48,324 nt of DNA from Nitrososphaerota archaeon. Its GTDB lineage: Archaea > Thermoproteota > Nitrososphaeria_A > Caldarchaeales > Wolframiiraptoraceae. The stretch is taken from assembly GCA_021159365.1 (NCBI GenBank), contig JAGGRY010000056.1, positions 1 through 48,324 of the forward strand, written 5' to 3'. Position numbers and translations under genes: made by a program. The notes beneath the pieces were generated by a model, which worked only from the letters and a program-made list of their open reading frames with translations, was not told the DNA's origin and searched no databases. Shown piece by piece: positions 43,730 through 48,324 of the stretch (positions are counted from its first letter, which is position 1; every line of letters begins with the position of its first letter).

Positions 43730-44011
43730 TCAGCGTTTGAGTAGGATCTCAATCGTGCTGACGCTTACTGGCTGATTGTTTGGCCCAGTCATCTCCTCAG
43801 TTCCAAGCTTTATGTCCTCAACTTTCAGATCCTTGTAAAATCTGCGTTGAAGGACTTGAACCACGTCGACGGCTCTGCTTATGGCCCTACCCCTGGCCTT
43901 AATCAATAGCTGGTTTGCGCCTCCTTGAAGAGTTGTTAGACAAGCGAAGACATAGTTCATCAAGGGCTTCTTACCAACCAATACAGTTGGAATCTCCTTC
44001 TCAGCCATCAC
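43730..44011 (-). CDS. albA: DNA/RNA-binding protein Alba
   Basis: VLVGKKPLMNYVFACLTTLQGGANQLLIKARGRAISRAVDVVQVLQRRF. Confidence 0.97.
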   Translation of the reverse strand: MMAEKEIPTVLVGKKPLMNYVFACLTTLQGGANQLLIKARGRAISRAVDVVQVLQRRFYKDLKVEDIKLGTEEMTGPNNQPVSVSTIEILLKR

Positions 44012-44312: not shown

Positions 44313-44350
44313 CGAAATCTTAATTATCCCTCATAGAGAATCTAACTAAT

Positions 44351-44444
44351 GGGCCGGTGGTCTAGCGGTATGACGCCGCCCTCACGCGGCGGAGGTCGTG
44401 AGCCAGTTAAGCTGGCCGATAAGGTTCAAGTCCCACCCGGCCCA
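44351..44444 (+). tRNA. tRNA-Val (anticodon CAC) with a 22-nt intron in the T-stem (44401..44422)
   Basis: Acceptor GGGCCGG/CCGGCCC; anticodon arm CCGCC-CTCACGC-GGCGG; T-arm GTG[intron]GG-TTCAAGT-CCCAC after removal of agccagttaagctggccgataa; no encoded CCA. Confidence 0.92.
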
Positions 44445-47108
44445 TCAATTTTTAAGCGAATTCTTTATACAAGCTACACCTTCCTGATTTTCTTTAAACC
44501 TTCTTACAAGCTCGGTTAGTCTAGCGCCTATTCTTTCTTTCGTTTCCACGGTTTGGGCGCCTATGTGAGGAGTTATTATAAAATTTTCAAACTCAGTATC
44601 TACTAGTTCTCTCTCGATGATAGGTTCGTTCATGAACACATCTACCGCAACGCCTCCAAATTTTCCATCGTTTAAGGCTTTCAAAAAGGCTTTCTTCTCA
44701 ACTACTTGTGCCCGCGATGTATTAACGAAAATTACCCCGTCTTTCATCATGGAGAACTCTTCCTCTCCTATCAACCCCGCCGTTTCTTTGGTAAGGGGTA
44801 CGTGAAGCGTTATGATATCGGCCGTCTTCAATAATTCCTCCATGCTCACTTTTCTTACTTCAGCTTGCTTAACGTAAGGGTCAAACGCTATGACATTCGC
44901 CCCGAAAGCTTGGGCTAGCTCTGCAACCCGTCTTCCTATACGGCCCAACCCTATTATGCCGATCGTTTTTCCCTTCAGCTCTTTCCCCACAAGATTCCCT
45001 TTCATCCATTTTCCGCTCTTCAATCCCTTGTCGGCTATGATTATCTTTCTAAGTAGATTGAGGATTAGAGCTATTGTCAGCTCTGCGACGGCTTCCGTTG
45101 AACCGGCAGTGGTTTCGACGGTTATACCTAAAGCTCTCGCAGCCTCTACGTCTATATTGTCAATTCCATGACCAGCCCTTATTATCAACTTCAGGTTCTT
45201 CATCTTTCTCAACAACTCCTCAGTAACCTTTGTTCTACTCCTTACGATCAGTATGTTAGCCTCTGCTAGGGATTCATCATCGATTTTAGTTTCTACAATC
45301 GCTATCTTTTCTATCTGGCTTATCACACTTTCCGGTAGGTCGTCTGGGATGAGGACTATAGGATAATTATTCAGGATCTTGAAGGCATCCGCTGTAACCT
45401 TTCCCGTACCTCCAGTTATCATCTCCAAGGCGGCAATCGTATCCAACACATCATCTTTTGTAACATTACCCATGTGCGCTATCCTTATTATCTTATCCTT
45501 CAATTTCCCCTGTCCATTTGAAATGACTACTCCGAACTCCCTTAGTCTTTTTATGATTTCCTCCACTTCAAATCCTTCAGGCGGTTTAGCTGCCGTAAGC
45601 GTCGGCGACGCCGCTTCCTCTCTCACCAGAAGCTTAAACCCAAATTTCTTTAAGCTTCTCCTGACAACATTTCTAAAAAGTTCATGTCGCTTTGCCCTAT
45701 TTTCAACGCCCTCCTGTTCAATGATTTTCAACGCCTCATTCAAACCATACAATAGGTTGATTGCCGGTGTGAACGGGGTTTGACCGCGCTCTGCATACTG
45801 CTTGTAAAGAAGTAAGTCGGTATAGAAACCTCTATGATCGGTGATATGCTTCCACGCATCCTTCCTTATTGCCAAAACAACCAAGCCTGGAGGAGCTCCT
45901 ACTGCTTTTTGTACGCCGAGGATGGCGATGTCTACCCCAATGCCTTGAATGTCTACTTCGTCTCCGCCTATTGCGCTCACAAAATCTACGACCGTTACTT
46001 TACCGTACTTCTTCGCTAACTTCACTATTTTCTCTGTTGGATTTACCATTCCCGTTGACGTTTCGTTGTGCACTAGAGTAACGAGCTTTACATCACGCCT
46101 TTTCATGGCGCTCTCCACTTCCTTCATATCAAACTCTTCACACCAACTACCCACCCTAATGGGGATTGCACCTACTGTTTGTACTATTTTTGCGAATCTT
46201 TCTCCGAACTCTCCGTTGACAAGCGTCAATACTTTTTCTCCTTTTCTAAGAAAGTTCTTTATCGTTGCTTCCATACCCAAAGTACTGCTACCGGTCATGA
46301 TCACGATGTCATACTCACTCAAGTTGAAAATTTTCTTTATCAACTTTACCGAATTGCTTAGCAATTCTCGGAATGCTGCACTTCTGTGACTGACAACCTG
46401 TGTTGCCATCGCTCGCATTATTCTTTCGTTGATTGGAGTAGGACCTGGCATCATTAAACGCTTACCTCTTACTAAAAACACACGAATGAATGGAAGTAAT
46501 GCTCTTAGGTCGTCAGCATCAACTACAACTTTTACATTACGTCTCACAACTTCAGTTGCATTAAATCCTATCCCCAGTCCTGCTGTTCTCAGCATCCTTA
46601 AATCATTAGCTCCGTCTCCGACGGCAACCACGTTCTCTAATGCAACACCTAGCTCTTTAGCAATTTTCATTAAATGCTCGTGCTTATTGTCATCGCTCAC
46701 TCTCATTTCTACGCCGGCGAGAGTGTTGTGTTTGAACACAAGCTTATTGGCAATAGCGAAGTCAAGGCCGAGTTGTCGTTTAATTTTGTTTGCCAGAATC
46801 TCGAAGCCGCCTGTGATTACTCCAACCTTAATTCCAAGATCCTTAACCTCATCCACAAATTCTTTAGCGCCCTTAACTAGTTTCATGTTGTTTGCCACTC
46901 TCAGACAGTCTTCATATTTCATTCCAGTAAGTAGGCTTATTCTCTCTTTAAGGCCATGTTTCCAGTCTATCTTACCTTCGATGCCTCTTTTTGCTATCTC
47001 TTCGACAGCGTCATAGTTTCCAGCAACTTTTGCTAACTCTGAAAGATACTCACCATCCACTAGCACGCCTTCCATGTCTAGGATAAGGAGTTTAGCCACT
47101 ATCTTCAC
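44445..47108 (-). CDS. Trifunctional fusion: phosphoserine phosphatase-like HAD + class V aminotransferase + D-3-phosphoglycerate dehydrogenase-like
   Basis: Residues about 1-216 SerB-like (LLILDMEGVLVD, VITGGFEILANKIKRQLGLDFAIANKL, VAVGDGANDLRML); about 218-566 class V aminotransferase (MMPGPTPINERIM, TGSSTLGMEA, VDFVSAIGGDEVDI, GVQKAVGAPPGL); about 575-887 SerA-like (IIRAGHGIDNID, IGIIGLGRIGRRVAELAQAFG, VNTSRAQVV, VDVFMNEP, TPHIGAQT). Confidence 0.93.
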   Translation of the reverse strand: MKIVAKLLILDMEGVLVDGEYLSELAKVAGNYDAVEEIAKRGIEGKIDWKHGLKERISLLTGMKYEDCLRVANNMKLVKGAKEFVDEVKDLGIKVGVITGGFEILANKIKRQLGLDFAIANKLVFKHNTLAGVEMRVSDDNKHEHLMKIAKELGVALENVVAVGDGANDLRMLRTAGLGIGFNATEVVRRNVKVVVDADDLRALLPFIRVFLVRGKRLMMPGPTPINERIMRAMATQVVSHRSAAFRELLSNSVKLIKKIFNLSEYDIVIMTGSSTLGMEATIKNFLRKGEKVLTLVNGEFGERFAKIVQTVGAIPIRVGSWCEEFDMKEVESAMKRRDVKLVTLVHNETSTGMVNPTEKIVKLAKKYGKVTVVDFVSAIGGDEVDIQGIGVDIAILGVQKAVGAPPGLVVLAIRKDAWKHITDHRGFYTDLLLYKQYAERGQTPFTPAINLLYGLNEALKIIEQEGVENRAKRHELFRNVVRRSLKKFGFKLLVREEAASPTLTAAKPPEGFEVEEIIKRLREFGVVISNGQGKLKDKIIRIAHMGNVTKDDVLDTIAALEMITGGTGKVTADAFKILNNYPIVLIPDDLPESVISQIEKIAIVETKIDDESLAEANILIVRSRTKVTEELLRKMKNLKLIIRAGHGIDNIDVEAARALGITVETTAGSTEAVAELTIALILNLLRKIIIADKGLKSGKWMKGNLVGKELKGKTIGIIGLGRIGRRVAELAQAFGANVIAFDPYVKQAEVRKVSMEELLKTADIITLHVPLTKETAGLIGEEEFSMMKDGVIFVNTSRAQVVEKKAFLKALNDGKFGGVAVDVFMNEPIIERELVDTEFENFIITPHIGAQTVETKERIGARLTELVRRFKENQEGVACIKNSLKN

Positions 47109-47144
47109 CTCTTTCGCTTCTAATCGAGAAGAACGCGGGAATCA

Positions 47145-47247
47145 GCGGTGAGAAAAGGTCGGCGTGACATACTATAGGGATTGGAAGGCCATCACGCTCA
47201 CCAGGTTTAGCAATGTTGCTGTCTGATATTTATGGTTTTCTCACCGC
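47145..47247. other. Nested inverted repeats capable of forming a three-way-junction RNA
   Basis: Perfect 12-bp pair GCGGTGAGAAAA (47145-47156) / TTTTCTCACCGC (47236-47247) enclosing GGTCGGCGTGA/TCACGCTCACC and AGCA/TGCT arms. Confidence 0.6.
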
Positions 47248-47442
47248 CTTGATTTTAAAACAACGTCTATACAAGAGGTTTCTTACGAGTTCGCTCCTCG
47301 ATCAAAACATCGGAGTCATGAACTTCTATAAAGCTGATTCGTAGAGTTACTTGAGAAGATGAAGAAAGTGTTAGGCAGCTATACGAGGAGGTGAAGTTAG
47401 AAGGAATCAAAAGTCTCTAGTTAGAAGAAAATGCTATTATAA

Positions 47443-48324
<882 letters not shown>

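Follow-up and report, generated by a model that had tools for sequence, protein, structure and literature searches.

A single gene in an archaeon of a hot-spring lineage (Wolframiiraptoraceae, Caldarchaeales) very probably encodes a genuine covalent trienzyme leading from 3-phosphoglycerate to serine, in which a SerB-like phosphatase, a class V aminotransferase (AT) and a dehydrogenase (DH) of the 3-phosphoglycerate dehydrogenase (PGDH) type are predicted to follow one another in one polypeptide. The gene is located on the minus strand of the window, i.e. the whole stretch of 48,324 nucleotides of contig JAGGRY010000056.1 that was analysed. Two fused copies are known here, each from a fragmented draft genome, the second one being that of genome G812 (phylum Aenigmatarchaeota, DPANN). 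With somewhat less confidence, the two likely represent a horizontally mobile and previously undescribed trienzyme family of DPANN and Caldarchaeales, in which one chain would carry all steps of the phosphorylated serine pathway, a natural covalent serinosome. This pathway occurs very widely, and its steps are normally catalysed by three separate enzymes.

Domains and reading frame of the fused gene

The gene and its parts have the following coordinates in the window:

44445–47108, minus strand: fused gene for the SerB-like phosphatase, class V aminotransferase and PGDH-like dehydrogenase (domain calls; homologous fusion in G812)
47105–47111, minus strand: Shine-Dalgarno-like GAGGTGA, overlapping the first GTG and 5′ of GTG codon 4 (sequence; layout alike in G812)
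46485–47108, minus strand: domain 1, predicted HAD phosphoserine phosphatase, residues 1–208 (TIGR00338 match; PDB 1f5s)
46458–46484, minus strand: linker 1, residues 209–217, RVFLVRGKR (9 of the 12 residues over 206–217 are the same in G812)
46452–46468, minus strand: possible internal start for an AT-PGDH product, GAGGT and then ATG-ATG at codons 219–220 (sequence only)
45423–46457, minus strand: domain 2, class V aminotransferase, residues 218–562, with the PLP lysine K401 and D375 (PF00266; PDB 2dr1)
45360–45422, minus strand: linker 2, residues 563–583, a low-confidence helix in the structure model
44475–45359, minus strand: domain 3, PGDH-type D-2-hydroxyacid dehydrogenase, residues 584–878 (PF02826/PF00389; TIGR01327; PDB 1wwk)

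The gene forms a single open frame of 887 codons from its first GTG without internal stops, as the initial annotation of this DNA had it, and the remaining two minus-strand frames over 44445–47108 contain 68 and 129 stops, with a longest open run of 55 codons. The GTG start given in that annotation is doubtful at codon 1. Because the first GTG sits inside the Shine-Dalgarno-like GAGGTGA, an arrangement shared with the homologue of G812, which has GGAGGTGA ahead of its ATG, the real start is probably GTG codon 4 at position 47099, which would give a protein of 884 amino acids.

Pfam and NCBIfam models recognised, in succession, HAD/SerB (residues 4–207), class V aminotransferase (218–562) and 2-hydroxyacid dehydrogenase/PGDH (585–873). 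No ACT domain was found in the fused protein by either model collection, in agreement with the initial statement on the SerA part. The sequence features named there (D11, GDGAND, K401, GLGRIG, R799, E828 and H848) were all in place. Of the claim that the three catalytic domains look complete, a near-complete motif set stands; motif I of the phosphatase is DxE (D11-M-E13) and not DxD.

Domain 1 scored 187.7 bits over residues 4–207 with the serB equivalog model TIGR00338 (cutoff 144.15), which places it within SerB, and on the basis of this match and its motifs it is predicted to be a phosphoserine phosphatase (PSP). The nearest solved structure was the Methanocaldococcus jannaschii PSP 1f5s (E-value 4e-41, PDB sequence search). 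All residues of this enzyme which we take to represent HAD motifs I–IV and substrate positions (D11, D13, E20, R56, S99/G100, K144, D167 and N170) aligned with identical residues except for D13, replaced by E, and S99, replaced by T; the corresponding set in domain 1 comprises D11, E13, E20, R56, T99-G100, K142, D165, N168 and D169. The replacement of DxD by DxE could be read as a sign of a degenerate phosphatase, in which case the product would be O-phosphoserine, for cysteine or other uses, instead of serine, and the frameshift in the G812 copy (see below) points in the same direction. However, the solved PSP of Thermococcus onnurineus (4ap9) likewise has a DxE motif I, as do archaeal relatives from two genomes (G046 and G055), and the window copy keeps the other catalytic positions in an open phosphatase frame. 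A degenerate phosphatase is considered highly improbable, and domain 1 is treated below as a SerB-type enzyme.

The PLP lysine K401 of domain 2 sits in the motif GVQKAVG. The nearest solved relative, which was also the top fold match, was Pyrococcus horikoshii PH1308 (2dr1, E-value 2e-58), annotated as serine aminotransferase, and by fold, PLP lysine and nearest relative the domain belongs to the class V enzymes of PH1308/TK1548 type. By its sequence, domain 2 is outside the canonical SerC family. The SerC models TIGR01364 and TIGR01365 gave no aminotransferase match among the 25 NCBIfam matches listed, which included AGXT-, PhnW- and BhcA-type class V models instead, and phosphoserine aminotransferase (PSAT) entries in PDB produced weak matches (E-values 4e-16 to 8e-05). 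Class V relatives act on many substrates, and domain 2 is predicted to act on 3-phosphohydroxypyruvate.

In domain 3, the full PGDH catalytic set (R799/E828/H848) was identified together with the GxGxxG-type NAD site GLGRIG and its acidic residue D743, and with the RSxTKVT and RAG arginines in RSRTKVT (R623) and RAGHGID (R644), which, judging by PGDH structures, presumably hold the phosphate of 3-phosphoglycerate. The nearest solved structure was P. horikoshii PGDH 1wwk (E-value 2e-66). TIGR01327 was the best model for this domain, yet the score of 286.6 bits stayed below the equivalog cutoff of 454, which describes full-length PGDH including the C-terminal regulatory part, because this part is absent from domain 3 (model positions 2–302 of 525 were covered).

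The AlphaFold model of the protein was confident over most of the AT and PGDH domains only, and its phosphatase part is unreliable because the alignment contained no phosphatase homologues. A fold search with the model agreed with PH1308 (2dr1) for the AT and with PGDH 1wwk for the DH. These two Pyrococcus proteins are, we assume, probable orthologues of the Thermococcus kodakarensis TK1548 and TK1966 proteins.

Besides the full trienzyme, the gene might also give rise to a shorter AT-PGDH chain by internal initiation, which would make the fusion partial at the protein level. The GAGGT located 9 nt 5′ of ATG-ATG (codons 219–220) has a good ribosome-binding layout for such a start; the motif is short and may occur by chance, and the aligned G812 protein has W-L near these methionines. 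Two products are thus an unlikely, if the least unlikely, of the alternatives weighed here, and the single full-length chain is the preferred reading.

The second fusion and unfused relatives

The initial annotation proposed that archaeal genomes be searched for co-linear three-domain proteins, and one match was obtained among about 1,500 genomes. The same three-domain protein was present in G812, without stops and with 49% identity over 859 aligned columns, G812 being the sole fusion genome among the 156 searched genomes of its phylum (that of locus L080). Linker 1 (PFIRVFLVRGKR / PFIRTFLMKGKR) was 75% and linker 2 was 38% identical between the window and G812 fusions, and the AT and DH catalytic residues, together with the phosphatase residues from R56 on, were invariant. 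In G812 the first ca. 17 phosphatase residues including motif I (FLVAFDLEGTLLKGEYF) are read in a different frame that immediately precedes the long one (locus L171, 1250–1510). The cause appears to be a single-base offset within a run of T, either a genuine lesion or an error of sequencing, and because motif I lies out of frame, the G812 copy may be devoid of phosphatase activity.

The window genome is a draft of 58 contigs, the gene is close to a contig end, and in-frame AT-stop-DH gene pairs are common, all of which would fit an assembly or base-calling error that fused three separate adjacent genes, a doubt raised already in the initial annotation. The G812 assembly is unrelated (G+C 38.6% in its contig vs 45.4% in the window, and RNA 3′-phosphate cyclases of the two fusion contigs merely 39% identical) and has the same architecture with both linkers recognisable, so that an assembly artefact is effectively excluded for the window. 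Moreover, no ATG, GTG or TTG occurs between codon 563 and codon 595, i.e. beyond the start of the dehydrogenase domain, and both window flanks stay collinear with a congener. An error of this kind is considered extremely improbable. Stops between the domains, named initially as the mark of three separate genes, were present in stand-alone relatives but absent from the G812 fusion homologue.

No further three-way fusion was found among the genomes searched (44 from the class and 398 from the phylum; 375, 228 and 301 from the phyla of an Archaeoglobaceae, an Asgard and a Micrarchaeota locus, respectively; and 156 of Aenigmatarchaeota). The best 80 loci from an alignment-based scan of 84,980 species included no fusion of these domains, and did not show G812 either, i.e. 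these searches are not exhaustive. A contig scan with the single protein as query found nothing, viral contigs gave no match, and plasmids and phages gave none that covered 80% of the query. A weak Methylobacterium match spanned AT and DH. An apparent AT-DH fusion in Chloroflexi (G403; frame of 1063 amino acids) was rejected, as the frame holds a stop. At five bacterial loci (L151, L155, L145, L158 and L120) the DH frames overlapped the upstream AT gene, by up to several hundred bases when counted from the first start codon.

Separate AT-then-DH neighbour genes were common, which agrees with the initial remark that many archaea have a class V aminotransferase next to SerA. In G890 (phylum Aenigmatarchaeota; L172, 777–3513), a SerB-like phosphatase, a class V AT and SerA were encoded by three genes that adjoin or overlap one another and follow the order of the fusion. 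The arrangement of the fused domains in reverse reaction order, noticed at the outset, is borne out and is explained as operon order, because the G890 gene cluster has the same order. The fused gene would probably have arisen from neighbouring genes by loss of stops. Adjacent class V AT and serA genes in archaea and bacteria resemble the fusion in their AT and DH families, in the position of AT before DH and, often, in the neighbouring seryl-tRNA synthetase (SerS) gene, but they are separate, with stops, and the phosphatase is usually encoded elsewhere, with G890 as an exception.

A literature search, conducted mostly outside subscription journals, found no three-way serine-pathway fusion. The nearest described fusion is the two-way PGDH-PSAT of oomycetes, brown algae and Thecamonas (PMC5715807, PMC2705460), in which two of the three serine-pathway enzymes are likewise on one polypeptide. 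It is eukaryotic, has PGDH first and N-terminal to a canonical SerC_2-type PSAT, an arrangement not seen in the window fusion, and leaves the phosphatase separate, whereas the window fusion joins all three in the order PSP-AT-PGDH with an AT of AGXT/PH1308-type class V. In T. kodakarensis, genetics showed that TK1966 is a 3-phosphoglycerate dehydrogenase, and TK1548 was named as the aminotransferase of the pathway (PMC5120207); with a SerB homologue these constitute the same pathway as that predicted for the fusion, but as three separate proteins.

Serine context and proposed function

The stop of the G812 fusion overlapped the start of a SerS gene (TIGR00414, 507 bits) by 7 bp. Unfused AT-DH pairs followed by SerS on the same strand were found at seven loci (L114, L123, L130, L178, L179, L180 and L182; Micrarchaeota phylum and Bacillota), and at L126 SerS was 2 kb from the AT-DH pair. 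No second SerB-like protein turned up in the genome of the window (89% complete), and SerB-like HADs were absent from most of the searched Caldarchaeales. When homologues of serA and serC elsewhere in this genome were looked for, as suggested in the initial annotation, the other DH and AT matches were just 40% and 27% identical to the fused domains. The SerS neighbours together with the G890 gene cluster support a role in serine supply.

A different assignment would make the AT a serine:glyoxylate or serine:pyruvate aminotransferase and the DH a hydroxypyruvate reductase of the serine cycle or of serine breakdown, with the HAD domain acting on another substrate. The AT family does include serine-pyruvate/glyoxylate enzymes, and methylotrophs have an adjacent sgaA-hprA gene pair. 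Yet the HAD domain is above the SerB equivalog cutoff, the DH has the PGDH-type RSxTKVT and RAG arginines with PGDHs as its top structural matches, and the adjoining SerS favours serine supply, which leaves the serine-cycle assignment highly improbable. The trienzyme reading of the initial annotation is instead upheld by the SerB cutoff, by the nearest structures (PSP, PH1308 and PGDH), by the SerS context and by the lack of another SerB-like match in the 89% complete genome.

In the proposed trienzyme, 3-phosphoglycerate would be oxidised by the C-terminal PGDH domain, with NAD+ as the acceptor, to 3-phosphohydroxypyruvate. From this the PLP aminotransferase in the middle would form O-phosphoserine, with presumably Glu or Asp as amino donor, and hydrolysis of O-phosphoserine by the N-terminal phosphatase would give serine. 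Being irreversible, the phosphatase reaction at the end would draw the two reversible reactions before it forward. Since the separate AT and DH enzymes of these families are dimeric, the fusion is probably at least dimeric as well. As the domains are fused, their stoichiometry would be fixed at 1:1:1, unless the internal GAGGT-ATG-ATG (codons 213–220) yields a second AT-PGDH product. Substrate channelling by the fused protein is a hypothesis.

Physical grouping of the serine-pathway enzymes is under study in human cells, where the serinosome has been proposed as a reversible PHGDH-PSAT-PSP metabolon (PMC11139964). The three activities are grouped in both cases, and the irreversible step that drives the pathway falls to PSP, but the human assembly is non-covalent and reversible whereas the window fusion is covalent. 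With a natural all-in-one enzyme, it would be possible to test directly what physical coupling contributes to serine synthesis. For annotation, naming by best hit would call the fused gene SerA alone or aminotransferase alone.

Locus and origin of the gene

The following features define the locus:

44447–47424: stretch absent from the congener G001, which has 26 other bases there; it contains the fused gene and ca. 315 bp upstream only
about 44350–44446, plus strand: tRNA-Val (CAC), whose 3′ end is the insertion border
47464–48324, plus strand: flanking ketol-acid reductoisomerase (KARI), running off the contig; 89% amino-acid identity to G001
43730–44011, minus strand: flanking Alba; 100% amino-acid identity to G001 over 92 residues

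The flanks were collinear in G001, which belongs to the same genus, and the fused gene was absent there, which leaves ca. 3 kb extra in the window. In the AT tree (support 100/100) and the DH tree (100/95) the two fusions grouped in a clade set apart from the AT and DH proteins of the host family itself; the HAD tree was too small to resolve the pairing of the fusions, and its topology is compatible with it. Since G001 lacks the gene at the collinear locus and the trees set the fusions apart from the family proteins, a horizontal gain of the gene by this Wolframiiraptoraceae lineage, next to tRNA-Val, is suggested; alternatively, the gene may have been lost in G001. Such a gain would suggest that the whole pathway can be acquired as one gene by a lineage in which a recognisable SerB is mostly missing.

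An integrative element at tRNA-Val was considered and rejected. Just the position is element-like, because the stretch has no integrase, and neither direct repeats at its ends nor a duplicate of the tRNA tail were found.

The tRNA-Val gene is 97 nt long and so probably contains an intron. ARAGORN reports no tRNA at the G001 locus (L067, contig C13) despite a very similar tRNA-Val sequence there. The genomic 3′ end of the tRNA reads TCA in the window vs CCA in G001, exactly at the insertion border.
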